From the NCBI RefSeq assembly GCF_018860825.1, contig NZ_JAHKPZ010000004.1, forward strand, positions 310,001-374,000: a stretch of DNA of 64,000 nt, read 5' to 3'. This document shows, piece after piece, positions 864 through 30,954 of the stretch; the stretch's first letter is position 1; each line of letters begins with the position of its first letter. The notes below the pieces were generated by a model. It made no database searches and had not been told where the DNA came from. It saw only the letters and a program-made list of their open reading frames with translations. The DNA is from Lacinutrix sp. C3R15 (GTDB lineage: Bacteria; Bacteroidota; Bacteroidia; Flavobacteriales; Flavobacteriaceae). A program made the position numbers and the translations under genes.

Positions 864-2924
864 TTACTCTCTAAAAATTGGCTTCTCAAACAACAACCAT
901 TTAAAACGAATACCTATCTCATTATAGGTGAATCCTGCTGCAGTTGCAGATGCAATATTACTTCGTGTAGCAAATATATTTGCCATACAACGAGTAGAAA
1001 ACTTATAACCTAATTTTCCTTGAAAGCGATAGGTACTTTGGCTGCTATCATTATCAATATATTGTAAACCAGTTGCAGCTGTTAGCTCATAAAACCATTC
1101 TTTAGGTTTTGCTGTGTTTTCGTCTTTAATAATATTAGCAAATACTTCAGCCGCATTAAATTTTTCTGGCGAAAAATAGATTGTTGGTACTTGGTTTTTA
1201 AAGGTTATGTATTGGTAGTTTATTCCTGCCTTTAAGGATGGTTTTGGTAAAATGTTATAATATAAAGAAGTAAATAATAAGTTTCTGGCATTATCATCAC
1301 TCTGGCTGGTATAAAAATACTGTGTAAACCAACCCAAGTTAAAATTTGTATTTAAACTGTAGTTTGCATAATAGTTGTTTTGTACAATTTCTCTGTCTAA
1401 TAATTCGGCATTAAAACTTTGTAATTCACGTTTATAACCAACGGTTAAATCTTGTAGTTTAAACGGTTTTATGTTTATAGAAATATCTGTTAAAAATTGG
1501 GTGTAGTCATTGGTAGTTGCTTTTGCCGAAGTTAAACCTGCTGTTCCTTTAAAAGTTGTGTTTGGGAATAATTGATAGGAAATACCTAAACTAAAGTCGT
1601 TTGAAGTTGCTTCGTTATTTGTTACAGGATTGTTTGTGCTTCTGTAATTATAACTTCCTAAGATTTTAAATTTTGTGGAAAAAGGAAATTCTAAAGTATT
1701 ATTAAATGCAAAAGCTTCGTTATCTCCATTATCAAAAGAGTAGGAAGCTTTTCCTTCATAAAAGGGAGTAAAGGTGGTGTTGAGGTTTTTTATAAAGTTT
1801 GTTGCATCTTTTTGGTTTTTGTAAAACTTCAAGGTGTTTTCTGCAGAAGTATATGCATCTTCATATTTTCCTAATGCTTTTAAAGCATTTGCATTTCCTA
1901 AGTTTCCATCAAAAGAAGTGCTGTCGTTAACCAAAATCTGGTCATAATCTTTTACACTTTTTTTAAAGTCACTTTTGTAAATGTTAAGTGTTGCACGTAA
2001 TGCTAAAACCCAATTTTCGTTGGGTTTGGTTGCTATTAAATTAGAAATAAGCGTTTCTGCAGATTTGTATTTTTTGTTCCAAATTAAGGCTTGAGCATAA
2101 CGTTCTGTGGTTTGTTGCGTAAGTGTTGCTGTTGTAGTTTTGTTTATACTCTCAAAAGCTTGTGTACTTAATTGTAAGGCATCTTTTTCCTTTCCGTTTA
2201 AATGGGAAACTAAAGCCAAACCATTTAATGCTGAGATTTTGTTTTCTGGGTTTTCTGCTAATAAATGATACGTGGCTTTGGCATCGTCTAATCGATTAGC
2301 AATAAGATAAAGGTTGGCTAAATTTAATAAAGTGTCTTTGTCGTTATTGAATAACTTTAGGTTTTCTTTTAGTAATAACTCGGCTTCATCGTATTTTTGC
2401 GATTGTTGTTTTTGGTATGCATACCCTAAATATATGTACTTTTTAGAGGTTAATGCATTTGGGTTTCCTGGTAATACTTCTAGTGCTTTATCTACATATG
2501 TTAGAGCTTTTTCATATTCTTTTAGGTTAGAAAGTGTATTGGCATAACTTAACAATGCAGGAAAGCTTTTTGGATCTTCTTCTATTAAACCTTTAAAATA
2601 GGTTTTGGCTTTGGTAAAATTACTATTCCATAATAACGATTCTCCATAATTAAGTTTTACCTCAAAATCTGTAGGATAATCGGCTAATAGATTTGTAAAA
2701 AGTGTGTTTGCTTCTTTTGGTTTTCCGTTTAACCCAATGGCACGACCATAACATAGTCTTGCTGTTTTATTATCAGGATATTCTTTTAATATATTTAAGA
2801 AAAATGTTTCCGCTTTAGCGTACTTACCCGTTTCTAAATAGGTAAAGCCTTGTTGCATGTCTTGCGCAAAGCTAAAAGATGCTGTTAATATTAAGGTAAG
2901 TAGGAATAAAAATTTAAGTTTCAT
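864..2924 (-). CDS. TPR-repeat protein with C-terminal outer-membrane barrel, putative polysaccharide exporter
   Basis: The 686-residue protein has a Sec signal peptide (cleavage after SFAQ). Residues about 25-390 are tandem tetratricopeptide-like helical repeats with Y/A/G-L spacing. Residues about 395-686 alternate polar and hydrophobic residues and are rich in Tyr, Phe, Asn and Thr, ending in ...FEKPIF, as expected for a beta-barrel. This two-part layout matches the periplasmic TPR plus outer-membrane porin of polysaccharide export proteins such as BcsC, PgaA and PelB. It is encoded next to a flippase, glycosyltransferases and a GH5-like hydrolase, so export of an exopolysaccharide is the best inference. 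The barrel prediction is by eye only. The gene is divergent from the STAS gene. Confidence 0.75.
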   Translation of the reverse strand: MKLKFLFLLTLILTASFSFAQDMQQGFTYLETGKYAKAETFFLNILKEYPDNKTARLCYGRAIGLNGKPKEANTLFTNLLADYPTDFEVKLNYGESLLWNSNFTKAKTYFKGLIEEDPKSFPALLSYANTLSNLKEYEKALTYVDKALEVLPGNPNALTSKKYIYLGYAYQKQQSQKYDEAELLLKENLKLFNNDKDTLLNLANLYLIANRLDDAKATYHLLAENPENKISALNGLALVSHLNGKEKDALQLSTQAFESINKTTTATLTQQTTERYAQALIWNKKYKSAETLISNLIATKPNENWVLALRATLNIYKSDFKKSVKDYDQILVNDSTSFDGNLGNANALKALGKYEDAYTSAENTLKFYKNQKDATNFIKNLNTTFTPFYEGKASYSFDNGDNEAFAFNNTLEFPFSTKFKILGSYNYRSTNNPVTNNEATSNDFSLGISYQLFPNTTFKGTAGLTSAKATTNDYTQFLTDISINIKPFKLQDLTVGYKRELQSFNAELLDREIVQNNYYANYSLNTNFNLGWFTQYFYTSQSDDNARNLLFTSLYYNILPKPSLKAGINYQYITFKNQVPTIYFSPEKFNAAEVFANIIKDENTAKPKEWFYELTAATGLQYIDNDSSQSTYRFQGKLGYKFSTRCMANIFATRSNIASATAAGFTYNEIGIRFKWLLFEKPIFRE

Positions 2925-2968
2925 GTTCTTGTTTTAAATCATTTGCAAGTTAGGCATTCCTTTGCATT

Positions 2969-3037
2969 CATTCATCTACAGCAATTGTCCAGTCGTCGAA
3001 ATTTAAAAGACTTTCAAGGGTTTTCAACGCATCTTTG
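2969..3037 (+). promoter_or_regulatory. Promoter A of the exopolysaccharide locus with paired activator-like sites
   Basis: CATTCATCTACAG at 2969-2981 is followed 21 bp later by CAGTCGTCGAAAT at 2990-3002. A -7-like element CATCTTTG (Bacteroidota consensus TAnnTTTG) lies at 3030-3037, 61 bp from the first site and 40 bp before the STAS start codon. No clear -33 TTTG is seen, which fits activator dependence. The 21-bp direct-repeat spacing is like that of LytTR-type regulators; this is an inference. Confidence 0.6.
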
Positions 3038-3076
3038 CATCAGCAATAAGACCTAAACAATATAAAAATAATAATT

Positions 3077-3355
3077 ATGGCACTTACAATTACACAAAAA
3101 GAGAATATAATAACATTAGAAGGCGCATTAAACGCAAGTACATTAAATAGTTTTAAAAATTACTTTAGTCTTGTTTTAAATACGAGTAAGAATTTTACTT
3201 TAAATATTGATAAGGTTACAGAAATTGATGTGTCTGGAATGCGTGTATTAAAAGAAATGTACAGAAATGCCATACATAACAACAATATATTTTTTGTAGT
3301 TGGTTATGGTTGTAAAGATATTTACGAAGATTTTAAGTGTCTAAACGTAGCCTAA
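3077..3355 (+). CDS. STAS-domain protein (anti-sigma factor antagonist-like)
   Basis: The 92-residue protein is a single STAS domain: an N-terminal beta strand pair, then the signature EIDVSGMRVL with Ser53 at the position phosphorylated in SpoIIAA-like proteins. It has no membrane segment or other domain. STAS proteins usually switch partners (anti-sigma kinases, phosphatases) or act as scaffolds. No RsbW-like kinase or PP2C phosphatase is encoded in the window, so its partner is not visible. It is first in a unit with the flippase gene (28-bp gap) and is under promoter A, which suggests a role in controlling polysaccharide synthesis or secretion. Confidence 0.85.
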   Translation: MALTITQKENIITLEGALNASTLNSFKNYFSLVLNTSKNFTLNIDKVTEIDVSGMRVLKEMYRNAIHNNNIFFVVGYGCKDIYEDFKCLNVA

Positions 3356-3383
3356 TTTTTACTAATATAAAACACAGAATAAG

Positions 3384-4628
3384 ATGCAAGCTTTATCTAT
3401 ATTAAAATCGAAAAAAATAACTCCAGAACAAATATTTATGTTAAGCGTATTAGCGGTAAATGGAGGAAACTACTTGTACAATCTTATTTTGGGTCGTGTA
3501 TTAGGTCCAGCACAATTTGCAGATGCAGCAGTGTTAATTACCTTTTTGTTAGTGCTATCTTTTGTAGCCATGACCTTTCAATTAGTAACCGCAAAATTTT
3601 CTGTGGTTTTTGAAAACGATACCTTTAAAAATTTCATCTCTAAAATTTATAAAAATGCAACGATTGTTGGCTTAGGATTAGGAGCATTAATAGTGGTTTT
3701 TGCAAACCAATTACAAAACCTTTTTAATACTTCAACTTCAAGTATGTTTACCATTTTTGGTATAGGAGTGCCTTTGTACTTTTTAATGAGTGTAAACCGA
3801 GGTGTGTTTCAAGGAAAAAAGGAATTCAATTACCTATCAATTACTTATCAAGCCGAAATGTTAAGCAGATTAGTTATAACATTAGCTTTAATCTTTTTAT
3901 TTAATATACAATCTTCTATTGTGATTGCTATAGGAATTTTAATTTCTTTCGGGTTTGGATTAATGCCATTTGAATTTAAAAATGTAAGCATTAAAAAGTC
4001 TATTGCTATGGAAGCAAGCCAATCTAAACAAGTAAGAAGCTTTTTTATAATTACAGCGTTTTATGAGTTTACACAAATTATAATTAACAATAGTGACATC
4101 TTATTAGTAAAACATTACTTTGATGCTTATGAAGCGGGATTATATGCTTCCTTAGCCTTAATAGGTCGTATTGTATACTTTGTAGCCTGGATGTTTGTTA
4201 TGTTGTTATTACCTACAGTAGTTCAGCTTAAAAAAGAAGGAAAAGAAACAGCGCCAATTTTATTTAAATATGTTGGTTACATTGCAGCAATAGCAACTGC
4301 TATCATTATAGGTTGTGCTTTGTTTCCAGAAACTGCAATTACCCTATTATTTGGAGATAGCTATTTAGCTATGGCTCCATTATTATGGAAGTATGCCTTA
4401 GCAACAGGTTTATTTGCCATATCTAACATCTTTGCATACTACTACCTATCGTTAGATCAATTTGTTCCTGTAGTAATTTCTGGAGTCTTCGGAATGCTTC
4501 AAATGGGATTAGTTATCTTTTTTCATCATAGTTTAGAGCAAGTCGTGCACATGCAAATTATAGCAATGGTTTTATTACTTGTTGTACAAATATTCTTCTT
4601 TGTTTTTAATACCAAACGTAAGAAATAA
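3384..4628 (+). CDS. Oligosaccharide flippase-like membrane protein (Wzx/PelG-like, MOP superfamily)
   Basis: The 414-residue polytopic protein has about 12 hydrophobic segments. The N-terminal region (GNYLYNLILGRVLGP) is typical of polysaccharide transporter (PST/Wzx) proteins, where the glycine-arginine-loop-GP pattern lies between the first helices. Such proteins move lipid-linked saccharides or polysaccharide across the inner membrane. The length is close to the usual 410-500 residues. The PST proteins of synthase-type systems such as PelG look similar. It follows the STAS gene in the same unit and is followed by a terminator-like hairpin and a tandem repeat array. The specific substrate cannot be read from the sequence. 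Confidence 0.8.
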   Translation: MQALSILKSKKITPEQIFMLSVLAVNGGNYLYNLILGRVLGPAQFADAAVLITFLLVLSFVAMTFQLVTAKFSVVFENDTFKNFISKIYKNATIVGLGLGALIVVFANQLQNLFNTSTSSMFTIFGIGVPLYFLMSVNRGVFQGKKEFNYLSITYQAEMLSRLVITLALIFLFNIQSSIVIAIGILISFGFGLMPFEFKNVSIKKSIAMEASQSKQVRSFFIITAFYEFTQIIINNSDILLVKHYFDAYEAGLYASLALIGRIVYFVAWMFVMLLLPTVVQLKKEGKETAPILFKYVGYIAAIATAIIIGCALFPETAITLLFGDSYLAMAPLLWKYALATGLFAISNIFAYYYLSLDQFVPVVISGVFGMLQMGLVIFFHHSLEQVVHMQIIAMVLLLVVQIFFFVFNTKRKK

Positions 4629-4669
4629 AAACACCTAAGATTTTATATTATTAGTCTATATAAATGAAG

Positions 4670-4698
4670 AAGCTGTGGTTTTTACTACAGCTTTTTCT
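4670..4698 (+). terminator. Intrinsic terminator after the flippase gene
   Basis: Stem 4670-4678 (AAGCTGTGG) pairs with 4685-4693 (CTACAGCTT, one G-T pair), with loop TTTTTA and a short T-run after it. It lies about 40 bp after the flippase stop codon. Confidence 0.7.
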
Positions 4699-4708
4699 GT
4701 TTATAGTA

Positions 4709-5400
4709 TTCAGCGCTACCATGTCATTCAGAGCGCAGCGAAGAATCTAATTAATAAATGATAATATAAAAAAAGAGATTCTTCAGTCGTACCTCCTTCT
4801 GAATGACAGCGTGGTTTTTAGTTGTATTTAGTTGTGCTTTGCGAGTTGCTACGTTATTCAGAGTTACCATGTCATTCAGAGCACAGCGAAGAATCTAATT
4901 AATAAATGAAAATATTAAAAAAGGAGATTCTTCAGTCGTACCGCCTTCTGAATGACAGCGTGGTTTTTAGTTGTATTTAGTTGTGCTTTTCGAGTTGCTA
5001 TGACATTCAGCGCTACCATGTCATTCAGAGCGCAGCGAAGAATCTAATTAATAAATGATAATATAAAAAAGGAGATTCTTCAGTCGTACCTCCTTCTGAA
5101 TGACAGCGTGGTTTTTAGTTGTATTTAGTTGTGCTTTGCGAGTTGCTACGTTATTCAGAGTTACCATGTCATTCAGAGCACAGCGAAGAATCTAATTAAT
5201 AAATGATAATATAAAAAAGGAGATTCTTCAGTCGTTCCTCCTTCTGAATGACAGCGTGGTTTTTAGTTGTATTTAGTTGTGCTTTTCGAGTTGCTATGTC
5301 ATTCAGAGTTACCATGTCATTCAGAGCGCAGCGAAGAATCTAATTGTTAAAATTTACTATAAAAAAGAGATTCTTCAGTCGTGCTTTCTTAGGAATGAAA
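4709..5400. repeat. Tandem array of 148-149 bp palindromic repeat units
   Basis: GTCATTCAGA begins at 4723, 4871, 5020, 5168 and 5316 (spacing 148, 149, 148, 148). In each of the first four units it pairs with TCTGAATGAC about 75 bp downstream (4798, 4947, 5095, 5243). An inner pair GAAGAATCT/AGATTCTTC is nested inside, so every unit can form a long hairpin. The fifth unit is degenerate in its right arm. Units 1 and 3 share variants (GCGCTACCATG, GCGCAGCG), as do units 2 and 4 (GAGTTACCATG, GCACAGCG), so the array looks like a duplicated two-unit block. The outer core resembles dispersed palindromic repeats common in Flavobacteriia. This fills the only stretch of more than 300 bases without a gene (4629-5537); I see no coding sequence in it. 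Confidence 0.93.
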
Positions 5401-5431
5401 TAATATAAAAGGTAAAACGACACCTTCTTAC

Positions 5432-5500
5432 CATTCGTCTACAGTAATATGTAATCTGTCTAAAGTTGTATGATTTAGTTAGTTATAAAACGCAAATTTG
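5432..5500 (+). promoter_or_regulatory. Promoter B of the exopolysaccharide locus with paired activator-like sites
   Basis: CATTCGTCTACAG at 5432-5444 is followed 21 bp later by AATCTGTCTAAAG at 5453-5465. The -7-like element CAAATTTG lies at 5493-5500, exactly 61 bp from the first site. The GT4 start codon is 38 bp further on. The layout matches promoters A and C. Confidence 0.6.
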
Positions 5501-5537
5501 TAGTGTAATTAAGAAACAATATTAAAAATATACAACA

Positions 5538-6758
5538 ATGAAACTAGCAATTGTAACAGCATATCCACCAAGTAAAGTAACATTAAATGAGTACGCTTAT
5601 CATTTAGTAAAGCACTTTAGACAAAAAGAAAATGTTACTGAAATTGTTTTATTAACAGATAAAACCGAAGGAGCAAAAGACATTGCTTTTACAGAAGATG
5701 GTTGCAAGGTTACCGTAAAAGAATGTTGGGAATTTAATAGCTACACAAACATTATAAACGTTACTAAAGCCATTAATAATATACAACCAGATGCAGTTTT
5801 ATTTAACTTGCAATTTATGAAGTTTGGAGACAAAAAAGTTGCAGCAGCCTTAGGTTTAATGTTACCATTAGTTTGCAAGTTGAAAAATATTCCAAACATT
5901 GTATTATTACATAATATTTTAGAAGAAGTAGATTTAGGATCTGCAGGATTTACAAGTAATAAAATCATGCAAAAATTATATGGTTTTATTGGTACAAGCT
6001 TAACTAAGTTAATTTTACAAGCCGATACTGTTGCTGTAACCATGCAAAAATATGTTGACATTTTAGAGAAAAAATATAATGCTAAAAATGTTACTTTAAT
6101 ACCTCACGGAACTTTCGAAATTTCTCAAGAAAAACCAGAATACAGTTTACCTCAAGGACCTTTACAAGTAATGACTTTTGGTAAATTTGGTACCTACAAA
6201 AAAGTAGAAGGTATGATTGAAGCTGTTGAGAAAGTAAGAGCGTCTACAGGATTAGATCTTGAAGTTGTAATTGCAGGAACAGACAACCCAAATGTGCCAG
6301 GTTACTTGGCAAAAGTGCAAGAAGATTATAAGCATGTGCCACAAGTACGTTTTACAGGTTATGTAGAAGAACATGAAGTACCAACCTTATTTAAAGAAAG
6401 TGCAGTAGTTGTATTTCCATATACAGCAACAACAGGAAGTTCAGGAGTTTTACACCAAGCAGGAAGTTATGGTAAAGCAGTAGTGATGCCAGATTTAGGA
6501 GATCTTGCTTTATTAGTAAAAGACGAAGGATATAAAGGAGAATTTTTTGAACCAACATCTGTTGCTAGTTTAGCAATCGCAATGGAAGCAATTGTAACCA
6601 ACGAAGCACACAGAATAGCTTTAGGAAAAGCAAATTACCAAGCGGCAACAGCATACCCAATGGAAAAAATTGCAGATATGTACTTATCTAATTTTGATAG
6701 AATTATAAATAAAAAAATACCTCAAAGTAAAAATGCATTAAAACCTACAAATGCATAG
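5538..6758 (+). CDS. Glycosyltransferase family 4-like protein
   Basis: The 406-residue protein has the GT-B two-domain layout. The N-terminal acceptor domain (1-195) starts with an opening strand and PPSKVTLNEYAYHLV. The C-terminal nucleotide-sugar domain (205-375) contains IPHGT, FGKFGTYKKVEG, FTGYV and SSGVLHQAGSYGKAVV. In the last motif the canonical E-x7-E pair is altered (H-Q where most GT4 enzymes have L-E), as in some GT4 subfamilies. No signal peptide or membrane segment is seen, so it should act in the cytoplasm. It is a single-gene unit under promoter B, with a strong palindromic terminator after it. It probably elongates the exopolysaccharide of this locus or transfers a sugar to its precursor. 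The donor sugar cannot be deduced. Confidence 0.85.
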   Translation: MKLAIVTAYPPSKVTLNEYAYHLVKHFRQKENVTEIVLLTDKTEGAKDIAFTEDGCKVTVKECWEFNSYTNIINVTKAINNIQPDAVLFNLQFMKFGDKKVAAALGLMLPLVCKLKNIPNIVLLHNILEEVDLGSAGFTSNKIMQKLYGFIGTSLTKLILQADTVAVTMQKYVDILEKKYNAKNVTLIPHGTFEISQEKPEYSLPQGPLQVMTFGKFGTYKKVEGMIEAVEKVRASTGLDLEVVIAGTDNPNVPGYLAKVQEDYKHVPQVRFTGYVEEHEVPTLFKESAVVVFPYTATTGSSGVLHQAGSYGKAVVMPDLGDLALLVKDEGYKGEFFEPTSVASLAIAMEAIVTNEAHRIALGKANYQAATAYPMEKIADMYLSNFDRIINKKIPQSKNALKPTNA

Positions 6759-6793
6759 AATGAAACGATAGCTATTTTGAAAAAAGAAAAACA

Positions 6794-6836
6794 GAAGAAT
6801 CTTTTAAATTAAGTCGGTTAATTTAAAAGATTCTTC
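6794..6836. terminator. Perfect 19-bp palindrome, bidirectional terminator
   Basis: Arms 6794-6812 and 6818-6836 are exact inverted complements around loop GTCGG. It lies between the convergent GT4 and GH5-like genes. The outer part GAAGAATCT/AGATTCTTC is the same core as in the tandem repeat units, so this may be a solitary member of that repeat family acting as a terminator. Confidence 0.75.
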
Positions 6837-6860
6837 GCTTTGTTCTTAATGGCATAATTG

Positions 6861-8375
6861 TTAGTTACTAATATATTTAAACGAAGCTTTTTTTGTTCCG
6901 TTTTTGTCAATAAACCCAAAATGTTTTTGGGTGTTTCTACGCCAAGGCCTACTACCTACAACGGCTTTTGGTACATCAACAAAATCATATAAAGTCCAAG
7001 ACATAAATTGCAATTTATTAGCAGCAATTATTTCTTGGATTTTTTTGTGGTAATTAGCCTGGTCTTCTTCAGATGAACCAAACGGTTTCCAGAACCCACC
7101 ATAAGAAGATATTCCAAATTCCTGAAGCACTAAAGGTTTGTCGGGTATTTGGGTTTTCATGGTTTTTATAGCAGCATCTAAATGTTCTAAGGCCTCATAA
7201 TAATGAAACGATACCATATCTACTTTATCTTTTAAAATTGCTGCACTTTGGGTGTTAGACCAACCAATAGTGACAGGGTGTACAGTATCTACAGATTTTA
7301 CTAAATCAATCATATTGTCTAACCAAGCAATTACATTTTCTTTTCCTCTAGAATCAAAATCAAGGTTTGGTTCGTTTTTAATATCCCAAGCAATAATAGC
7401 GTTATGGTCTTTAAAAGTAGATACTATGGTTTCTGCGTGACGTTGGTTTAAGGTCCAATTCATCACCGAATAATCGCCATAAAAATCAAATAACGTTAAA
7501 ACCACTTTTAGGTTTTGTTCTTCCGCAGCATCTAAAGTTTGTTTTAGTTTGTCTAGCTTTTTAGGGTTTACAGCTGCTTTGCCAAAGTCATCATATTGCA
7601 CAAAAATTCTTACCGAATTTAACCCAGCATCTTTAATAATTTTAAAGTCGTTAGCAATAATGTCTTTCGCAAAAGCGTCTCCAAACATATTCCATGGTGT
7701 AGCTTTCGGATAATAATTTATCCCTTTAATAATTAAACTATCGGTTTCTATTTTTGTTGTTTTTGGTTTAAAAGGCTTACTACTTTCTTTTACCAAATGT
7801 CTTATGCGCCAAAAACCATCTTCTAACAAAAACACCATTTTGTAGGTAGATGTTTCTGTAGTTTCTAATACTAGTTTTTCTGCTTTAAAAATACGCTTAT
7901 ACTCTACAACATCTTTATCTGTAACAACAGCAAGTTGTCCATCTTCACTAAAAAACTCTAAAGTAGGGTTGTGGTTTAGTGTTGTAGCTTCAATGGTTGT
8001 GTTTTCGGCTTTATTTAATGCAATAAAAGCATATAAATTTTCTCTGGCACTATCTGTGTAATAATCTTTTATACCAGCAGTTTTGTTTGTTTTGTAAGCC
8101 ACTTGTTTTACATACCAAGCATCTAAATAATCATTCTGTAAGGCATTAAGGTTTTCGTTATCCATTGGCCTACCTTCATTGTTTAAAGGTTCCCAGATTA
8201 ATTTTGGAGCATATTGTTCTATTTTTTGTATTTCTGTATGTAGCATGGTACTTCTATCTGCTCCAGTATTTAGGTAGCTAAAAAGCGCGCTAATACCAGA
8301 AATAATCAAGGCTACAATCATAATATATGAGCTTATTAAAATGGTACGTAGTATTTTTTTATTAAGACCTACCAT
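6861..8375 (-). CDS. Membrane-anchored glycoside hydrolase, GH5-like (cellulase superfamily)
   Basis: The 504-residue protein has an N-terminal membrane anchor (residues about 10-33) and an NTF2/SnoaL-like region (about 75-205). A TIM-barrel follows with the GH5/GH-A signatures AWDIKNEPN (acid/base Glu in NEP) and LVLQEFGIS (nucleophile Glu). Both catalytic Glu residues are present, so activity is expected on beta-linked glycans in the periplasm or at the membrane surface. Hydrolases inside exopolysaccharide loci often trim or release the polymer (compare BcsZ and PelA), and the context supports that role. The start overlaps the end of the upstream gene by 7 bp, so it is the last gene of a three-gene operon. 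Confidence 0.85.
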   Translation of the reverse strand: MVGLNKKILRTILISSYIMIVALIISGISALFSYLNTGADRSTMLHTEIQKIEQYAPKLIWEPLNNEGRPMDNENLNALQNDYLDAWYVKQVAYKTNKTAGIKDYYTDSARENLYAFIALNKAENTTIEATTLNHNPTLEFFSEDGQLAVVTDKDVVEYKRIFKAEKLVLETTETSTYKMVFLLEDGFWRIRHLVKESSKPFKPKTTKIETDSLIIKGINYYPKATPWNMFGDAFAKDIIANDFKIIKDAGLNSVRIFVQYDDFGKAAVNPKKLDKLKQTLDAAEEQNLKVVLTLFDFYGDYSVMNWTLNQRHAETIVSTFKDHNAIIAWDIKNEPNLDFDSRGKENVIAWLDNMIDLVKSVDTVHPVTIGWSNTQSAAILKDKVDMVSFHYYEALEHLDAAIKTMKTQIPDKPLVLQEFGISSYGGFWKPFGSSEEDQANYHKKIQEIIAANKLQFMSWTLYDFVDVPKAVVGSRPWRRNTQKHFGFIDKNGTKKASFKYISN

Positions 8376-9586
8376 AGTTTTTTGTTATTAAATGTTTTGG
8401 CTATTCCAGCAGTTTCTACACGGAAATTATAATTTCCGTTTTGGTACACTGCAGGCTTTAAATTGAAGGTAACATAGCCATTAAAAGATGTTTTTGTAAT
8501 GGTATCTACAAGCGTGTTATTTTTGTAAATTAATAGTTTTACCTGCAAACCATCGGGAATCATTTGCTTCATAAAACTTTGCAAAGGGCCAACTAAAATT
8601 TTACGATTTTTGTTGGTAAAGGCAATATCAAAATCATCAATAACACTTTGGTAATTTAGTGTAATAGTATCGCTTTCTGCCATACCATCTATATAAGCTT
8701 TTATGTTCCAGGTATCTTTAAAATCGGGATGAATCATTTTAGAAGTTGCTATTCCTTTGATAGTAGTTCCTGTCGTTTTTAAAATATTTCCGTTTTCAGT
8801 GGTTATAAAAAAAGTAACAAATGTACCATCGCTAACCACGTTATCTTGCTTGTCTTTAATTACAGAAGTTGCAAAAGTTGTAACCTGATTTCCGTCGGCG
8901 TAATTATGTGGTCGCTTTGCTGAAATTTTAAAATCTGTAGGAATTGCAGCCCATACCTGAATAGTGAATTCTTTTGAATTGACTCCTAAACTTTCCGATG
9001 AAACTAACATTCGTCCACTTTTTCTTTTGGAATATATATTTTTATAAGCTATTAAATTTTTGGTAAAAATGGCTTCTTTTTCTTCGGAAGCTAAAAACTG
9101 AAACTTTGCATTTACCTTGGTGTTTGTTGGTACAGGGTTGTCTAGAGAATCGGTAGGAATAACAACCAACATGGTGTAATCTGTTTCTCCAGCTTCAATA
9201 CTTGGCGGACCAATATAGGTTTCTATGGTGGCTACTTCTGCTTTTGGATTAAGGTTAAATTGCCCTGAAACAGATTCTTTTTCTTGTAATAATTTCCAAA
9301 GAACAACTCCAGTTTTTTTAGTGATGTTTTCTGGTATTTTATATTGAATTACATTGTTTTTTAATAATGCTTCAACCAAAGTTGAACCATAACTATTCGA
9401 GCAATAGAGTAGTGGTTTTTCGCCTTCGGAAGCCGTAAATTCTAAAACAACAGCATTTCCAACTTCATAATCTGTTTGTGTAGTTAATAAGATGCTAGGA
9501 GGCCTTGTTTCGTTTTGTTGCGCAACAGCAAAAGAGGATAATAAAATTAAACCTAAAAGAAATATGAATGTGCGTATACCTTGCAT
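8369..9586 (-). CDS. Secreted beta-sandwich (Ig-like) protein of unknown function
   Basis: The 405-residue protein has a Sec signal peptide (cleavage after AVAQ). The mature part is beta-rich, and the region around residues 215-320 (with DGNQVTTFATSVIKDKQDN and GTFVTFFITTENG) resembles invasin/Big-type Ig-like domains. No catalytic motif is seen. The start codon shares one base with the stop of the upstream giant membrane protein (TAATG) and its end overlaps the GH5-like gene, so the three proteins are translationally linked. It may be a periplasmic scaffold that presents the polymer to the hydrolase or exporter; that role is inferred from context only. Confidence 0.7.
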   Translation of the reverse strand: MQGIRTFIFLLGLILLSSFAVAQQNETRPPSILLTTQTDYEVGNAVVLEFTASEGEKPLLYCSNSYGSTLVEALLKNNVIQYKIPENITKKTGVVLWKLLQEKESVSGQFNLNPKAEVATIETYIGPPSIEAGETDYTMLVVIPTDSLDNPVPTNTKVNAKFQFLASEEKEAIFTKNLIAYKNIYSKRKSGRMLVSSESLGVNSKEFTIQVWAAIPTDFKISAKRPHNYADGNQVTTFATSVIKDKQDNVVSDGTFVTFFITTENGNILKTTGTTIKGIATSKMIHPDFKDTWNIKAYIDGMAESDTITLNYQSVIDDFDIAFTNKNRKILVGPLQSFMKQMIPDGLQVKLLIYKNNTLVDTITKTSFNGYVTFNLKPAVYQNGNYNFRVETAGIAKTFNNKKLW

Positions 9587-12500
9587 TAATTTGGACTTCC
9601 TATATATGTGTTAATTTCTATTTTAATATAACTAAAATCGGGATGATCTATTTTTTGTAATTGCGCATCGCTATGGTTTTCTATTCTGTTTGGCACTATT
9701 TTTCCAGCAATAGCATCGTTTGGTAAGCCATTTACAAAAATGTTATCCATATTGGTGTTAATGATTTTTACTTGTCCATTTTTTAATATTCTATATTCAA
9801 AATCTTGTTTGCGTTGTTGTCGCACGCCTTCTTTTACAAATAAATGATCTACCCAAACCATGTTTTTATTAGTATCGTAATAGGTAATTAATAGTTGAGG
9901 TATGGTAATTTCCTGGATCCCACTATTAAATAAGTTTCCGTTTATCGTTTCTTCTTTAATATCAATAGCGCTTAATACTACATTTTTGTATAAATCTGAC
10001 CCTGAAACATTTCCTGCTACTTGCAAGTTGAATTTGGTAGGTTGCTCTTCAAAGGCAACAGGAGTAAATTCATCTGGATTAAACGTATCTGGAATAGAAT
10101 CTTGGGTTCTAGACCAAGCAATGCCTTCAAAATTAATACGGAAACTAGTGGACTCTTTAGGCATTAATTTATGCTTTACATGATATTTAGCATTGTAAGT
10201 AGCGAGTTCTTTATTGTCATCGTTGTATAAGGTTCCTTTTAAAATAACATCTGCAGGTACATTATCTATATTTTGTACTTCACCAATTATGGCATAACTA
10301 CCATCATATTGCACCAATTTAGCCGAAATAACTTCTAAGACAGGTTGTTTTAAAATGTCTTCATGATGGGTTTGTTCTGTTGTAATGCGTCGTCTACCTT
10401 GATTAAAGTATTTTGTTGCATTGTTAGCGTATAGTTGGTCTGGTGGTAAATCGTTATTTAAATCATCTGGTTGTAAATACCATTTTCCTTTTCTTTTGGA
10501 TAAGGATTTATAATCTATTTTTTCAATTTTCTCTAAAGGTGTAATCCATTGTGTTGTCACCTTTGCAGAGACTGTACTATCGTTATGTGTTGTAATTTCT
10601 GTTGCAATAGCATCCATTTTGGCATAGCTGCTTAGTAAACCATCGGTTACAGAAATTTCTAACATGTATTGTGCAATAGGTAGCTGGTTTTCGGGGTCGA
10701 TTAAGCTATGTGCTTTTTCAAATTCTTTAAAATCTAAAGCGTCATAATAAGCAATAATGGCGTTTTCAGGGCTGCGTTGCGAATCGTTTTTTAGGTAAAA
10801 TAAATAAATACCATAACACACAACTATAGCTAAAAATAGAGACCAGATATGTGTAATGCGCAGTACGTTTCTGTTAAATTTATGATACTTAGTTGGAAAC
10901 TTTAAAAAATCAGGTGTAGATTTTATACGTGTTTTTAACATGTTTACCCAAAGCATTTGTATGTTTAAAATAAATGCGATTAACACGGTTAAAAAAGGCA
11001 TAATTCCCCAATGTATTTTTAGCCATTTAGCAACATCTTCTTTTGGTAAAATAGAAGATACAGGAGGAATGTTTAAACGTTCCCAAACCATAATACCGTT
11101 TTCTAATTGACGTAAGCGTTGCCATCCACAAAAGTAGAGGATAGGATCGTAAAACTTATCGTTAGAAAATATATATTTTAGATTGTATTTTTCTGGTGTG
11201 GTTAAAAATTGCTGTAAAGATCCTATACCAGCAACTCCTTTAAACTTAGAGTTTTCTAAACGCTCAATAGGTCGAGTGGTTAACTCTGGTAGTCTTCTTG
11301 CAGAGTGGTAGTTACCATCTACTGTCATGGCGTTGGTTTGTGCACTTAACCAAGCCATTTGGTCTCCAAAACCTAAGGTTAAAAAGCGCCATTTATCATG
11401 ATCATCTTGATTTAAGAAATTCACAATAGGTAACATTTTTATTTTCTGTGGTTGCGAGGGTCTAAAGTAGTTAAGACTCATGGTAAAAACTACCATAAAT
11501 ACCATTAGTCCTGCTAATATGCCACCAATAATTCTGTGATAAACAGCGCCAAATTTAGATTGAATGCGCGCTTTTAAATCGCCTTCTGTAAAACGATAGG
11601 CAAACTCGCCCATTAGTGGTATAGATAAGATGGAAGCCCAAAGGGTAAATCTATCTAAGGTTAAAATATTAAATGCAGTTTCGCCTAACATTTTTAAAGG
11701 TATTGGCGTGGTTCCTCCTGTTCCTAAAATGGTACAAATGGTTACAGATAAACCAAAAAACAAATACCTTTTGCTGTAATACCTGTAAAATATATAAGGT
11801 AATAGTACTAATAAAATTCCCCATGGAATTAAAAAGAAAACTAAACCAGAGGAGGTGATTTCTAGAAAGTTATCACGTGAGCCATGTGGAATAGGAACCT
11901 GTGTAATTGGGTTAGCTTTTGAGTTTAACCAATACGGAAAAATACAACCTACAATGAGGACTAAGGATAACATTCCAAAGCTTAAAATACGCTTAAAAAG
12001 TTTGAAAAAAGTATTCAAAAATATTTTGAAAGTTACTTCTTTCATCGTGTTTACTTGCTCTCGAGAAACATCCATAATGACCATTCCTATTAAAGGAAAA
12101 ATAAAAAATACCATTCCAAAAATGGGTGTCACATGATGAGAAGTAACAGTAACAGCTATTAAAGATAGCGATGTGGCTAAGTACCATTTTTTACCTGTTT
12201 TTAGCCACAGGTAAATCTCTGGTAAGGCATGCATTAATACCGAAACACCAACAATACTTGGTAATTGTCCAAAAATATGAAGTGTTTCTATAAACGAAGA
12301 AGAAAACACCGCTAGTACACAAGCATAACCGGCTACAGTTTTGTTACCTGTTATTAATAAAGAAAAACGATAGGCTCCTGTAACAAATAAAACTATAGCA
12401 ATTAAAGCAACGCTAAACATGCCAAACTTTAAACCGCCAATCATAGAGAGTAGCGCTATAGATTGATGCACTAAAGGAGGATAACTTTGAACCGTAAAAC

Positions 12501-12675
12501 CAGTATACCACTCATAGTTCCATGGTTCAAACCAACTATTAGCATAATGATCTGCAAAAAACAGATGTATTAAGGCATCATAAGTAGTTTCTAAAGTAAA
12601 AAATATAGAACTACCATGAAAAGCCAATCCTAAAAGAATGGCAGTGATTAAGTATTTATTTGAGGTTTCCTTCAT
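9586..12675 (-). CDS. Giant multispanning membrane protein, PTPS-related/GT-C-like, with C-terminal FxLyd-like domain
   Basis: The 1029-residue protein has about 12-13 transmembrane segments in residues 1-560. Its first outer loop (TYDALIHLFFADHY, then a W/Y-rich stretch) resembles the membrane domain called 6-pyruvoyl-tetrahydropterin synthase-related, a GT-C-like membrane fold. A further transmembrane segment near 605-625 is followed by an NTF2-like region (about 640-740) and a beta-sandwich typical of FxLyd domains (IGEVQNIDNVPADV). A role as the membrane glycosyltransferase or synthase component of the polysaccharide system is a fair inference. It is the first gene of the minus-strand operon with the beta-sandwich protein and the GH5-like hydrolase, and is divergent from the response-regulator/GT gene. 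Confidence 0.75.
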   Translation of the reverse strand: MKETSNKYLITAILLGLAFHGSSIFFTLETTYDALIHLFFADHYANSWFEPWNYEWYTGFTVQSYPPLVHQSIALLSMIGGLKFGMFSVALIAIVLFVTGAYRFSLLITGNKTVAGYACVLAVFSSSFIETLHIFGQLPSIVGVSVLMHALPEIYLWLKTGKKWYLATSLSLIAVTVTSHHVTPIFGMVFFIFPLIGMVIMDVSREQVNTMKEVTFKIFLNTFFKLFKRILSFGMLSLVLIVGCIFPYWLNSKANPITQVPIPHGSRDNFLEITSSGLVFFLIPWGILLVLLPYIFYRYYSKRYLFFGLSVTICTILGTGGTTPIPLKMLGETAFNILTLDRFTLWASILSIPLMGEFAYRFTEGDLKARIQSKFGAVYHRIIGGILAGLMVFMVVFTMSLNYFRPSQPQKIKMLPIVNFLNQDDHDKWRFLTLGFGDQMAWLSAQTNAMTVDGNYHSARRLPELTTRPIERLENSKFKGVAGIGSLQQFLTTPEKYNLKYIFSNDKFYDPILYFCGWQRLRQLENGIMVWERLNIPPVSSILPKEDVAKWLKIHWGIMPFLTVLIAFILNIQMLWVNMLKTRIKSTPDFLKFPTKYHKFNRNVLRITHIWSLFLAIVVCYGIYLFYLKNDSQRSPENAIIAYYDALDFKEFEKAHSLIDPENQLPIAQYMLEISVTDGLLSSYAKMDAIATEITTHNDSTVSAKVTTQWITPLEKIEKIDYKSLSKRKGKWYLQPDDLNNDLPPDQLYANNATKYFNQGRRRITTEQTHHEDILKQPVLEVISAKLVQYDGSYAIIGEVQNIDNVPADVILKGTLYNDDNKELATYNAKYHVKHKLMPKESTSFRINFEGIAWSRTQDSIPDTFNPDEFTPVAFEEQPTKFNLQVAGNVSGSDLYKNVVLSAIDIKEETINGNLFNSGIQEITIPQLLITYYDTNKNMVWVDHLFVKEGVRQQRKQDFEYRILKNGQVKIINTNMDNIFVNGLPNDAIAGKIVPNRIENHSDAQLQKIDHPDFSYIKIEINTYIGSPN

Positions 12676-12735
12676 TTAAAGCCTAAGCTACAATAATATG
12701 GTAAAGATAAATAAATATAATAGTGCTTCCATTTT

Positions 12736-12825
12736 TAATTATCTATAGCAATCTACCATTCGTCGACACTTAGCTATAGGTTAAACTAAATAACAAATTT
12801 AGGGTTGTCTTCTCTTGTACATTTG
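12736..12825 (+). promoter_or_regulatory. Promoter C of the exopolysaccharide locus
   Basis: CATTCGTCGACAC at 12757-12769 lies exactly 61 bp upstream of a perfect TAnnTTTG element (TACATTTG, 12818-12825). Weaker copies lie 21 bp upstream (TAATTATCTATAG, 12736) and about 22 bp downstream (12779). The start codon of the receiver-GT2 gene is 31 bp after the -7 element. The site may also act on the divergent operon starting at 12675. Confidence 0.65.
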
Positions 12826-12855: not shown

Positions 12856-14040
12856 ATGAAAGTTTTAGCAATAGATGATCAACAATTAGTATTACTGCCT
12901 TTACAAAAAAGATTAGCCGAATTAGGTTATGAAGTGCAAATAGAAACAGATGCAGCTAAAGGATTAGAATTATATGACTCTTTTAGTCCAGATTTAGTAA
13001 TAGTAGATATTAATATGCCAGGAGTTTCTGGATTAGAAGTTGTAAAATATATAAGACTTACTAAAAATTCTCAAACACCAATCATGGTTTTATCTGGAGA
13101 TACTAAAGACGAAACAATTACTGAAGGTTTTGAATTAGGTATTAACGATTACATGAAAAAGCCATTAAGCTTAAATGAAATTAGTGCACGTGTAAAACGA
13201 TTAATTGGTGCTCCAGTAATGCAACACAAAGTCGCTAAAAGTAATGTAATGATACAAGAGCGTTGTGTTGGTGTTGTTATCCCTTGTTATAATGAAGAAG
13301 AACGTTTATTAAGTGAAGAGTTTATTTCTTATATCGATAAAAATTCTGGTTACCATTTATGTTTTGTAAATGATGGGAGTAAAGATAAAACCTTACACGT
13401 TTTAAAAGAACTACAAAAGGGAAGAGAAGACTTTATAACTGTTTATGACTGTGAAAAAAACGGAGGAAAAGCAGAAGCTGTACGTTTAGGAATGTTACAC
13501 ATGGCTAAAAAAGAAGATTTAGATTATATAGGTTTTCTTGATGCAGATTTATCTACAGACTTAGCAGATTTTGACGATTTAGTAAAAACTATTGAAACTT
13601 CAGAATTTAAAATTGTTAGTGGTTCAAGAATCTCAAGAATGGGAGCAAATATTACTAAAGAATCTGCAAGAAAAATAATTAGTTTAACTATCAATTTTAT
13701 AATTAGAAAGATTTTAAAAATGGATTTTAAAGACACGCAATGTGGTGCTAAAATCTTTCATAAAGATGTAATTGACATTGCATTTGGTAAAAAATTTGTA
13801 ACCCAATGGATTTTTGATGTAGAGATCTTTAAAAGAATGCGTATTCATTTTGGATTAAATGAAGCAAAAGCAATGCTTTGTGAGCAACCATTAAAAAGAT
13901 GGGTCCATGCAGATGGTTCTAAACTATCTATGAAAGATTCTGTAAAAATTGTAGGACAATTAGCGCAGATTGCTTGGGTGTATAGAGCTAAAAAGCAAAT
14001 AGTAAAACCTGTAGCTACAACAACGTTACATACTGTTTAA
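12856..14040 (+). CDS. Response regulator receiver domain fused to GT2 glycosyltransferase
   Basis: I chose the ATG at 12856 (394 residues) over one at 12805 because the receiver domain begins there (MKVLAIDDQQ) and the earlier ATG lies before the promoter -7 element at 12818. Residues 1-118 form a complete receiver: acidic pair D7-D8, phosphoacceptor D51 (VDINMPG), S80 and K102 (KKP). After a short linker, residues about 136-370 form a GT2 domain of the DPM1/ALG5 type with VIPCYNEEE, VNDGSKD, the metal-binding D229-A-D231 and an RW motif near the C-terminus. No transmembrane segment is present. Receiver domains normally control DNA-binding or cyclic-nucleotide output; direct coupling to a sugar transferase is rare. 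It suggests phosphorylation-controlled polymer synthesis. No histidine kinase is encoded nearby. Confidence 0.92.
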   Translation: MKVLAIDDQQLVLLPLQKRLAELGYEVQIETDAAKGLELYDSFSPDLVIVDINMPGVSGLEVVKYIRLTKNSQTPIMVLSGDTKDETITEGFELGINDYMKKPLSLNEISARVKRLIGAPVMQHKVAKSNVMIQERCVGVVIPCYNEEERLLSEEFISYIDKNSGYHLCFVNDGSKDKTLHVLKELQKGREDFITVYDCEKNGGKAEAVRLGMLHMAKKEDLDYIGFLDADLSTDLADFDDLVKTIETSEFKIVSGSRISRMGANITKESARKIISLTINFIIRKILKMDFKDTQCGAKIFHKDVIDIAFGKKFVTQWIFDVEIFKRMRIHFGLNEAKAMLCEQPLKRWVHADGSKLSMKDSVKIVGQLAQIAWVYRAKKQIVKPVATTTLHTV

Positions 14041-14068: not shown

Positions 14069-14554
14069 ATGAAATTAGGTATTATTATCATCTTCCATAA
14101 TAACGAAAAAGAAATAGATACTTCTTTTTTTATAGATCAAATCAAGCAAACTGCAAATCTAGAATTATGCTTAGTAAATAACGATAGTAAAGATGATACG
14201 TATCAATTATTAAAAACAGTAAAAGCGTCTTGTAGTAATGTGTCTGTAGTTAATGTTAGAAAATTTACATCAGATAATGCAGCAGTAAAAGCAGGAGCCA
14301 GATATATGTATAATGCATTTAATCTAAAACATTTAGGGTATGTATCCATAAATATGTTAAACATAAAGCACCATGGTTTAAATGGTTTGCTACAAGTAAT
14401 ATCTAAAAACCAAGAGCTCATTTTAAACTATAATTATTACGCTTTAAAAAAGAAGCAAACTTTAAAACAGCGTTTATTTTCTGTAACAGATTATTTAAAG
14501 CAATTAAAAGTTAATAATCATTTTATTAATCTTCAATACCAAACAAACCTATAA
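14069..14554 (+). CDS. Short GT2-like protein lacking the DxD motif, probable pseudo-enzyme
   Basis: The 161-residue protein resembles the first part of the GT2 domain just upstream: IIIFHNNEKE matches the VIPCYNEEE region and LCLVNNDSKDDTYQLLK matches LCFVNDGSKDKTLHVLK. At the position of the metal-binding DAD, it has NML within YVSINMLNI. It ends soon after the GT-A nucleotide-binding half. It is therefore probably not catalytic. Its intact frame and place between the receiver-GT2 gene (28-bp gap) and manA (11-bp gap) argue that it is a maintained regulatory or structural subunit and not debris, but a decaying paralog is possible. Confidence 0.75.
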   Translation: MKLGIIIIFHNNEKEIDTSFFIDQIKQTANLELCLVNNDSKDDTYQLLKTVKASCSNVSVVNVRKFTSDNAAVKAGARYMYNAFNLKHLGYVSINMLNIKHHGLNGLLQVISKNQELILNYNYYALKKKQTLKQRLFSVTDYLKQLKVNNHFINLQYQTNL

Positions 14555-14565
14555 AAACAACAATT

Positions 14566-15567
14566 ATGAAAGTATATCCAATAAAATTCAATCCAATATT
14601 AAAAGAAAAAATCTGGGGAGGAAACAAACTAGGAAACCTTTTAGGAAAAGATACAAACAAAGATAATGTAGGTGAAAGTTGGGAGATTTCTGATGTAAAC
14701 GGAAACATTTCAGAAGTAGGTAATGGTGTTTATAAAGGAGAAAATTTAAAAACGTTAATTGAAAATCATGAAGCAGCGCTTTTAGGAACAGAGAACTTTG
14801 CAAATTTTGGCTATAATTTTCCGTTATTAATTAAATTTTTAGATGCAAAAACAGATTTGTCTGTACAGGTGCATCCAGATAATACCATGGCAAAAAAGCA
14901 CCATAATAGTTTTGGTAAAACAGAAATGTGGTATATTATGGATAGCGATGAAAAAGCAGATATTGTTTTAGGCTTAAAGGATAAAACTACAAATCCAGAG
15001 GTTTTAAACCATATAAATGCAAATAATGTAGATGCTGTTTTTAATAGAGAGCAAGTAAAAAAAGGAGATAGTTTTTTTATTCCTGCAGGAAAAATTCATG
15101 CTATTGGTGCAGGTGTATTAGCTGCAGAAATACAACAAACAAGCGATATTACTTATCGTGTTTACGATTGGGATAGAACGGATGATTCTGGACAAAAAAG
15201 AGAATTACACACCCAATTAGCAGAACAAGCAACCAAACAGTTTGACTCAAACGGAAAAGCAGCATATAATTTACAACCAAATGCAAGTGCTAGTTTAGTA
15301 AGTTGTGAATATTTTACAACCAACATTTTAGATGTAACCAATCACCAACTAAAGGATTACAGTAGCTTAGATTCTTTTGTCATTTTTATGTGTGTAGAAG
15401 GTGAAGCAACTATAGCTGCTGGTTTACATACCGAAACCATAAAAATGGGTGAAACTATTTTAATTCCTGCCAATACAAAAGAGGTTGCATTTAGCGCTAC
15501 TAATGCAAAATTATTAGAGGTTTATGTAGATAAAGGATTGGTGCAAAACATGCAACAAGCGTCTTAA
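14566..15567 (+). CDS. manA: Mannose-6-phosphate isomerase (type I, class I-like)
   Basis: The 333-residue protein has the family features: the N-terminal KFNPILKEKIWGG, the zinc-binding QVHPD with downstream Glu (KTEMWYI), the C-terminal metal His in IPAGKIHAIG, and the Arg in DITYRVYDWDR. The enzyme interconverts fructose-6-phosphate and mannose-6-phosphate, the entry to GDP-mannose. Short manA proteins of about 320 residues are usual in Bacteroidota. As the third gene of the promoter C unit, it probably supplies mannose-type precursors for the polysaccharide made by this locus. Its stop is only 7 bp from the end of the convergent ligase gene, with no terminator visible. Confidence 0.93.
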   Translation: MKVYPIKFNPILKEKIWGGNKLGNLLGKDTNKDNVGESWEISDVNGNISEVGNGVYKGENLKTLIENHEAALLGTENFANFGYNFPLLIKFLDAKTDLSVQVHPDNTMAKKHHNSFGKTEMWYIMDSDEKADIVLGLKDKTTNPEVLNHINANNVDAVFNREQVKKGDSFFIPAGKIHAIGAGVLAAEIQQTSDITYRVYDWDRTDDSGQKRELHTQLAEQATKQFDSNGKAAYNLQPNASASLVSCEYFTTNILDVTNHQLKDYSSLDSFVIFMCVEGEATIAAGLHTETIKMGETILIPANTKEVAFSATNAKLLEVYVDKGLVQNMQQAS

Positions 15568-18537: not shown

Positions 18538-19413
18538 TTATTTTAAGTTTTCTAGTGTTTTATTTACTTTTTCTATGGCTTTATTGTTTTTGTAATCTAT
18601 CCATTTTTGTCCTTTCCATTTTCGCATTATGTTTTCAAAATGACGCATAAAAAACACATTGTATAACATGTTTAATGCTGTTTTTGGTTTTTTTGTAAAT
18701 GCTCTCAAAGACATAGAAAAACCAGCATCTAAATATTCTACAAAATGCCAATAACCACTTGGCATGTATAAGGCATCTCCATGTTTCATTTCTACTTGTA
18801 TGGCTTCTACGTGTTGTAAACCAGGATATTTATTAAAGTCTGGATTTGCCATATCAATTTCTTCTAGATTATGTACAGCGTAAGGTATTTTGTATAGAAA
18901 TTTAGTTTGTTCAGGCGAAAACAAAGTAACACGTTTGGTACCATGAAAATGAAAATGAACCAAGTCTGCCAAATCCATATCATAATGTGTTAATACTTGT
19001 GAACCTTTACTACCAAAAAATAAAACAGGTAAGCGTTGAAAAAATTTTAAACCCATATCTGGATATTTAAAATCTTTAGCTAGAACAGGCATTTTTTTCA
19101 TGACATCATAAAAGAAAATACGTAAATCTGTTGGTTTTGTTTTTAGTATTTCAATATAATCATAGAGCTTCATTTCTGTAGCTGGTTCTGCAGATTTTTG
19201 TTTGCCTTTGGTAGCTTCGTTATTATATAGAGGCACCACTTGATCTCCTGCAAGCGATTGTATATAATCTAGATTCCATGTATGGTAAGCGTTCCAGTCC
19301 TGAGTAAGATTTTCTATAAGTACAGGACGTTGTGGTTTGTAATAATTTTTTACAAAATTAGCTTTAGTAATGTTTTTTACACGATCAATAGGTTGTAGTT
19401 TAAATGGTGCCAT
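18538..19413 (-). CDS. Cupin-like (JmjC-type) oxygenase-fold protein
   Basis: The 291-residue protein is a cupin_8/JmjC-like domain. The N-terminal PQRPVLIENLTQDW is the typical entry, followed by an iron-binding HxD (THYDMD) and a distal His in MPSGYWHFVEY. The Fe(II)/2-oxoglutarate residues are therefore present and hydroxylation is possible. The family contains protein and small-molecule hydroxylases. Its stop is directly next to the C45 start (18537/18538) and it follows the FAD oxidoreductase by 10 bp, which places it in the pigment operon. Its substrate is unknown; a hydroxylation of the pigment or its head group is a guess. Confidence 0.8.
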   Translation of the reverse strand: MAPFKLQPIDRVKNITKANFVKNYYKPQRPVLIENLTQDWNAYHTWNLDYIQSLAGDQVVPLYNNEATKGKQKSAEPATEMKLYDYIEILKTKPTDLRIFFYDVMKKMPVLAKDFKYPDMGLKFFQRLPVLFFGSKGSQVLTHYDMDLADLVHFHFHGTKRVTLFSPEQTKFLYKIPYAVHNLEEIDMANPDFNKYPGLQHVEAIQVEMKHGDALYMPSGYWHFVEYLDAGFSMSLRAFTKKPKTALNMLYNVFFMRHFENIMRKWKGQKWIDYKNNKAIEKVNKTLENLK

Positions 19414-19423
19414 AGGTTTATTT

Positions 19424-20965: not shown

Positions 20966-20969
20966 TATT

Positions 20970-25836: not shown

Positions 25837-25855
25837 TTAATAAAGTGTTTACTTT

Positions 25856-26353: not shown

Positions 26354-26360
26354 TGGTAAT

Positions 26361-26726: not shown

Positions 26727-26729
26727 TGT

Positions 26730-27329: not shown

Positions 27330-27332
27330 GAA

Positions 27333-27923: not shown

Positions 27924-27927
27924 TCGG

Positions 27928-30952: not shown

Positions 30953-30954
30953 GG

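Follow-up and report, generated by a model that had tools for sequence, protein, structure and literature searches.

LytTR-type regulators act from DNA sites that may be arranged in quite different ways, as two described systems illustrate. In Pseudomonas aeruginosa, the LytTR response regulator AlgR controls exopolysaccharide (alginate) genes, and its sites at algD are far apart (-470, -394, and -45 in opposite orientation; PMC4064291). In the LytTR regulatory systems (LRS) HdrRM and BrsRM, a receiver-less LytTR protein is combined with an inhibitory membrane protein. Direct repeats, in most cases 12 bp apart, are found about 10 bp upstream of the -35 element, and positive feedback operates; LRS-like operons have been predicted in Bacteroides thetaiotaomicron and B. 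ovatus before TATCTTTG (PMC6193735). The subject of this analysis is a set of phased, LytTR-type half-sites (“boxes”) in the flavobacterium Lacinutrix sp. C3R15, three promoters of which lie in a stretch of 64,000 nucleotides (contig NZ_JAHKPZ010000004.1, positions 310,001 to 374,000 of the forward strand) that is called the window throughout. The boxes form a probable LytTR operator set in a phylum for which few have been described. Very probably, they are half-sites of a LytTR response regulator encoded in the same glycan gene island, activating the promoters of that island, most of which lack a -33 element, together with the promoter of the regulator’s own sensor operon.

The arrangement in the island resembles each of the described systems in some respects and departs from it in others. 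As with AlgR, a LytTR response regulator would control polysaccharide genes, and the AlgR core CCGTTCGTC matches CCATTCGTC, the form found in four of the seven exact island boxes, at 8/9 bases. In place of widely separated sites, however, the island has sets of three directly repeated half-sites, which are held strictly in 21-bp phase and keep a constant distance to the promoter. With the LRS, it has in common direct repeats just upstream of the promoter and, as proposed here, positive feedback on the regulator’s own operon; it differs in the third half-site, in the mostly missing -33 element, in the strict phase kept through the whole island, and in the protein itself, a receiver-LytTR protein encoded along with kinases, an Hpt-like protein, and heme-sensor-like proteins. 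The presence of the receiver domain rules out membership in the LRS. On the input side, the nearest analogue found is the control of group behavior by H-NOX and NosP in proteobacteria, in which the sensor gene likewise adjoins that of a histidine kinase. In Vibrio cholerae, for example, the NosP gene lies beside that of the histidine kinase VpsS, followed by LuxU, and quorum sensing and the vps genes are reported as the output (PMC6769237). The operon considered here differs in that it ends in the gene of a LytTR transcription factor. The output of H-NOX and NosP in proteobacteria also includes cyclic-di-GMP.

The promoters themselves are similar to those read by flavobacterial sigma-A, for which a -7 box, TAnnTTTG, is reported at -12 to -5 of the start (PMC9723704). 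Their -7 elements are near this sequence, with a first base that is often C, and they differ in that the -33 element is mostly missing, its place lying beside the proximal half-site. In a search limited to listings of open-access papers and to passages from some of them, no paper was recognized that describes the sensor operon or the boxes.

Phased half-sites upstream of the -7 element

The original prediction had described, at three plus-strand promoters of the window, a site beginning 61 bp before a TAnnTTTG-like element. The positions given for all three sites were correct and the distance is exact at each: CATTCATCTACAG (2969..2981) precedes CATCTTTG (3030..3037) in the promoter of the STAS-flippase unit, CATTCGTCTACAG (5432..5444) precedes CAAATTTG (5493..5500) in that of the GT4 gene, and CATTCGTCGACAC (12757..12769) precedes TACATTTG (12818..12825) in that of the REC-GT2 unit. 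The -7-like elements are present as described except for their first base, which is C rather than T in two of the three. The second copy said to follow 21-22 bp later lies at 21 bp in every case, and its quality varies from good (CAGTCGTCGAAAT, 2990..3002) to fair (AATCTGTCTAAAG, 5453..5465) to poor (AGGTTAAACTAAA, 12778..12790) in the order of the promoters. Overlooked was a further copy 21 bp upstream of each site, namely TAATTATCTATAG (12736..12748) at the REC-GT2 promoter, GGTAAAACGACAC (5411..5423) at the GT4 promoter, and a poor match, AGTTAGGCATTCC (2948..2960), at the STAS-flippase promoter, where it overlaps a possible promoter of the divergent TPR gene. All of these boxes and elements are on the plus strand.

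The common plan of these promoters places half-sites upstream of the -7 element, at -82, -61, and -40 relative to it, one per 21 bp, or two helix turns. It replaces the earlier two-box reading, in which the partner was always downstream, because the promoters of three further units of the same genome (REC, the lone receiver gene that begins the sensor operon, SEC868, and orf128) have their better partner upstream. If the -7 box occupies -12 to -5 here too, the proximal half-site would center near -46, beside the -33 position. That no good -33 element accompanies the boxes, also part of the original prediction, was borne out by a count over 45 of 54 anchored island promoters, those with a -7-like element at 60-62 (30 of the 45 come from one genus): TTG occurs 22-29 bp before the -7 element in three and is absent from this position in the other 42, one of the three exceptions being the GT4 promoter at 5432.

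Comparison with relatives illustrates how regularly this plan is kept. Fifty-four promoters from 17 genomes were aligned on the middle box, with no anchor given to a promoter whose middle box departed from the relaxed pattern or lay outside the allowed distances to the start codon; the alignment left out the REC rows of G004 C118, G004 C192, G038, and G015 (no pair, or another gene) and the REC-GT2 rows of G015, G017, and G024. Among the aligned promoters, half-sites reappear 21 bp to either side of the middle box, which is the most regular of the three; usually one outer box is recognizable, and the good one may be on either side. In a leave-one-out test of 117 other offsets, the best were -21 (z 3.9) and +21 (z 3.4), with 20 and 22 at background. 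Of 29 representative promoters, this test used 17, which represent each unit once per genus and come from six genera; the 12 REC rows, which are anchored by the pair itself, were dropped. In 14/17, the distance from the middle box to the start of C/TAnnTTTG/A is 60 or 61 bp; the three exceptions are the STAS-unit promoters of G014, G011, and G020, which read GATATTTG at 61. At the sensor-operon promoter, the good pair is mostly that at -82/-61, and it is that at -61/-40 in G007, G017, G024, and probably G032.

A broader sample was provided by the best 80 of 369 relatives’ loci (1.61 Mb; Lacinutrix, Olleya, Oceanihabitans, Winogradskyella, Algibacter, Psychroserpens, Tamlana, and others), which include contigs matching G002, G003, G004, G005, and G015 as well as two loci of one strain. 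The receiver gene at the operon start is found in 78 of these 80 loci (it is absent from L156 and L222), and a 21-bp box pair with at most 4/24 mismatches precedes it in 68 of the 78, whereas no other spacing between 14 and 30 gives more than 2/78. Over these 80 loci, the composite of box and -7 element occurs 128 times in forward orientation, twice in reverse, and twice with a reversed box. Of the forward composites, 103 lie 50-220 bp before a recognized island gene and 25 before no named gene.

Distribution of the boxes and the candidate regulator

Beyond its conservation, the architecture is nearly restricted to the island and is inherited together with the LytTR gene. Within the window alone the count is unimpressive, with 17 matches to the motif at up to two mismatches as compared with 10.2 +/- 3.4 in shuffles (at least 17 in 4/100 shuffles), but the genome-wide count changes the verdict. 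The exact motif CATTCRTCKACA occurs eight times in 3.61 Mb, and seven of the eight share a strand and fall within 23.9 kb (G000:C42:298863-322768); the reversed control occurs once. This 24-kb island begins 11 kb left of the window, the start of which is contig position 310001, and four of its seven exact boxes are left of the window. The probability of such clustering is about 4e-15 and, when the three window sites that prompted the pattern are left out, 1e-8; both are guide values, with the span set by the matches themselves.

The composite CATTCRTC-N53/54-ANNTTT has 11 matches in the genome (reversed control, 7). Six of the 11 are the six island promoters, and each of the other five falls in an open frame of coding size, whether on its own strand or on the opposite one. 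A regulon scattered across the genome is rejected, since these five composites and the eighth exact match (C35:100922) all fall in coding-size open frames; two exact matches on contig C4 of G025 are also within open frames. A box search allowing one mismatch was uninformative (53 matches vs. 52 for the control). The check proposed with the original prediction, for random spacing of the motif across the genome, was run in the exact and composite scans, and random spacing was not seen.

A three-box model trained on 24 promoters, all from outside the genus and with the distance to the -7 element not part of the model, was applied to both strands of 104 kb of the C3R15 contig (207,890 positions). 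The six island promoters take ranks 1-6, with scores from 41.7 to 22.7, and each of them has a -7-like element at a distance of 60 or 61. The positions ranked 7-11 are these sites shifted by one box and a site before the gene of a CAP-domain protein, and the first unrelated position scores 10.3. The training set includes orthologues of four of the six promoters but none of SEC868 (rank 2) or orf128 (rank 6). The CAP site (G000:C42:305820, window position -4180) is a seventh, degenerate one with TAGTTTTG at 61. It is weak in this genome (rank 10, score 11.3 vs. 10.3 for the nearest unrelated position), a full box stands there in G002, G003, and G004, and the CAP promoter is probably a member of the regulon. 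The six strong sites precede six plus-strand units, those of orf128, the sensor operon, SEC868, STAS, GT4, and REC-GT2, and the proposal of a single regulon is supported and enlarged from three units to six or seven.

The regulator had been said not to be encoded in the window, which is true; a fitting candidate is the product of a receiver-LytTR gene (G000:C42:304882-305595), which lies 4.4 kb to the left of the window and is the last gene of the sensor operon. There is a good probability, judging from the sequence, that this gene specifies the regulator of the boxes. Its product matches PF00072 (66.9 bits, cut-off 30.2) and PF04397 (74.4 bits, cut-off 22.6), and the promoter of its operon carries the best box pair. 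Assignment of the boxes to the LytTR type, as originally proposed, is supported by the 21-bp direct-repeat period, the likeness to the AlgR core, the position of the LytTR gene at the end of the operon with the best pair, and co-inheritance. Elsewhere, at G030:C2:381139-382752, lie tandem LytTR genes with 71% and 47% identity to the island one; after them comes another three-box site, whose -7 element is at 61.

Six of the seven genes of the sensor operon match receiver, HNOB, kinase, FIST, or LytTR families. The H-NOX protein scores 136.8 bits against HNOB (cut-off 25.5), and its best solved relative is 6bdd (E 3.6e-95), which is labelled an aldolase in its record and is used as Kordia algicida H-NOX in PMC7356049. 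Across 78 sequences, ENHIH is more than 97% conserved, as are Y and S of YKSSR, with R of the latter more than 80% conserved. In H-NOX proteins, the first motif contains the heme-ligand His and the second is the YxSxR motif. From its sequence we infer that this protein would bind nitric oxide (NO) and control the neighboring kinase. The FIST protein has both FIST and FIST_C domains; it was rejected as a NosP (NCBIfam NosP equivalog, 60.2 bits vs. a cut-off of 450). For the seventh protein, Hpt-like is the best guess. VHKLKHKISILGL is more than 97% conserved in 81 sequences of it, and membership in Pfam Hpt was rejected (19.7 bits, E 0.001, vs. a cut-off of 24.6).

Co-occurrence was assessed in 60 genomes, including that of C3R15, with an orthologue of the LytTR protein defined by at least 60% identity (the next best has 51%). 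Orthologues are present in 18 of the 60 and form a separate group. A box cluster, defined as at least two exact boxes within 30 kb of a contig and counted by eye before being tested, is found in 11/18 genomes with the orthologue vs. 0/42 without (P 9e-8), or in 6/13 vs. 0/37 when counted by genus (P 1e-4). A similar division is seen for o1029, a large protein that marks the glycan locus (16/18 vs. 0/42), and for H-NOX (17/18 vs. 3/42). The H-NOX gene lies beside the LytTR gene on one contig in 15 genomes; in G004 the two are on different pieces of a fragmented assembly, and in G017 they are on different contigs. The strict composite has 58 matches in the 60 genomes, with 45 in islands, five elsewhere in LytTR genomes, and eight in the 42 genomes without the orthologue (control, 9).

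In G008, the glycan locus is on contig C12 and the LytTR gene on C31. Phased triples nonetheless precede three units, with scores of 23.1, 18.5, and 10.5, against 14.6 for the nearest position away from island genes and about 9 for the rest of the list, and two of the three triples have a -7-like element 61 bp after one of the boxes; the arrangement speaks, not strongly, for control in trans. G017 (L233-L234, L103) shows another division, in which C18 carries the glycan genes and a sensor operon that lacks LytTR, while C20 carries a receiver gene, the gene for LytTR, and a second flippase gene that has good boxes.

Alternatives to the proposed activation by the island regulator

Other accounts of the boxes have to be weighed. 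The LytTR protein may repress these promoters, or the boxes may serve equally the divergent minus-strand genes (the TPR686 and o1029 units). Two of the three window sites are indeed between divergent genes, and the box at 2948 overlaps a possible -7 element of TPR686. Yet all seven sites point toward plus-strand genes at a constant distance, no minus-strand position in the 104 kb has a three-box score above 6.5 as compared with 22.7-41.7 for the six promoters, and the -33 position is mostly empty, as expected of activated promoters, so that we regard this explanation as unlikely.

A further account, which appears quite improbable, accepts the boxes as genuine operators while attributing their recognition to one or more other LytTR paralogues, the neighboring gene being linked to them by history alone. 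Including the island protein, five LytTR regulators of the genome reach E <= 1e-30, and known LytTR boxes resemble one another. The boxes and glycan genes are, however, gained and lost together with one orthologue, and a strong pair stands before that orthologue’s own operon in most of the best 80 of 369 loci, as counted above. Moreover, G006, a genome of the same genus, has a LytTR paralogue but no LytTR orthologue, H-NOX, o1029, or exact box.

If the promoters were recent duplicates of each other, their shared spacing could reflect descent rather than function, and the confinement of all sites to one island would fit such an origin. Sequence between the boxes, however, looks unrelated between units and genera while the boxes, the 21-bp phase, and the -7 distance stay, and in distant genomes the good outer box switches side with the phase kept, which makes duplication a very improbable explanation. 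Chance matches in A+T-rich intergenic DNA, for which the merely mild over-representation of the motif within the window could be cited, are refuted by the genome-wide and comparative counts and can be given next to no weight.

Activation by the island LytTR protein remains by far the most probable reading, although a number of observations count against it. Several outer boxes are poor. Among the 72 REC promoters with a pair, only 26 have C/TAnnTTTG/A at 81/82 from the first box (at most 3 at other offsets), and most are without a clear element there. The strict box is not clustered in seven of the 18 genomes with the orthologue; G017 and G024 have altered boxes, no convincing triple was found in G015, and no good triple was found at the unlinked glycan locus of G017 (C18). 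The co-occurrence counts were corrected for descent no further than the count by genus, and the four further LytTR regulators of the genome that reach E 1e-30 could read similar boxes.

Genes of the island and the proposed switch

The island begins, in contig coordinates, with orf128, the gene for a small unknown protein (G000:C42:298926-299312) that starts at 298926 or, more likely, at 298977. The later Met may be the right start, as the -7 element comes after the first ATG and four of six relatives’ matches begin at residue 14-17. The sensor operon (299450-305595) encodes, in order, the lone receiver, H-NOX, a PAS histidine kinase, FIST, a second histidine kinase, the Hpt-like protein, and receiver-LytTR. 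It is followed by genes for the CAP-domain protein (305911), for SEC868 (306527), a protein of 868 residues sorted by the type IX secretion system (T9SS), and, to the right of SEC868 and before the window genes, for two thioredoxin-like proteins. In the window, the first of these genes is that of the TPR protein TPR686 (864-2924, minus strand), divergent from the 2969 promoter; its similarity to polysaccharide export proteins (PgaA and BcsC models) is weak and under cut-off in all cases.

The STAS-flippase promoter precedes plus-strand genes for a STAS-domain protein of 92 residues (3077..3355) and a polysaccharide flippase-like protein of 414 residues (3384..4628). Between the flippase gene and that of GT4 lies a 148-bp unit in 4.6 tandem copies (93% matches; 4708-5382), which ends 50 bp before the 5432 site. 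The GT4-like glycosyltransferase (Pfam group 1, 406 residues) is encoded at 5538..6758 on the plus strand, and three minus-strand genes, for a glycosyl-hydrolase-like protein, o405, and o1029 (1029 residues, 9586-12675), separate it from the REC-GT2 unit. No Pfam match to o1029 was found at E 0.001. The REC-GT2 unit, again on the plus strand, consists of genes for a receiver domain fused to a GT2 glycosyltransferase (394 residues, 12856..14040), a small GT2-like protein (161 residues, 14069..14554), and mannose-6-phosphate isomerase (manA, 14566..15567). In G025, G011, and G016, the GT2 matching REC-GT2 aligns without the receiver part. To the right is a minus-strand run (15575-32214) that includes an AMP-binding enzyme, an MMPL protein with an acyltransferase domain, a GT2, and ketosynthases, perhaps a cluster of the flexirubin or aryl-polyene type; none of the six high-scoring box sites is within it.

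How these genes may work together can be proposed from their sequences, with DNA binding, activation, phosphate flow, NO input, and a surface-glycan product all belonging to the predicted part of the scheme. The heme sensors would set kinase activity, and the kinases and Hpt-like protein of the sensor operon would pass phosphate to the receiver of the LytTR protein. Once phosphorylated, this protein would fill the phased half-sites on one face of the DNA, adjoining the empty -33 position, and recruit sigma-A RNA polymerase to the -33-less promoter. The sensor operon would switch on itself in positive feedback, and the output units would be STAS-flippase, GT4, and REC-GT2-manA, for a surface glycan, along with SEC868 and probably the CAP-domain protein. 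The receiver fused to GT2 suggests a second, direct phospho-input to the enzyme.

More tentatively, the whole may be a gas-to-glycan switch, a proposal that we consider plausible but somewhat short of probable. Signals from H-NOX, and in many genomes FIST, would reach a single LytTR activator by way of the kinases and Hpt-like protein, and this activator would control a conserved surface-polysaccharide island and its own operon, so that NO would set the glycan by transcription and not by cyclic-di-GMP, with REC-GT2 a possible additional point of phospho-control.

For a phylum in which few activators and promoters have been mapped, the analysis provides, from sequence alone, a candidate regulator, its operator, the geometry of the promoters, and a bounded list of targets. 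It also yields a rule that can be tested: a middle box 60-61 bp before the -7 element, a box every 21 bp, and a -33 element that is mostly absent. If it is true that the heme sensors feed the LytTR protein, NO-driven change of the cell surface in marine flavobacteria would become directly testable.

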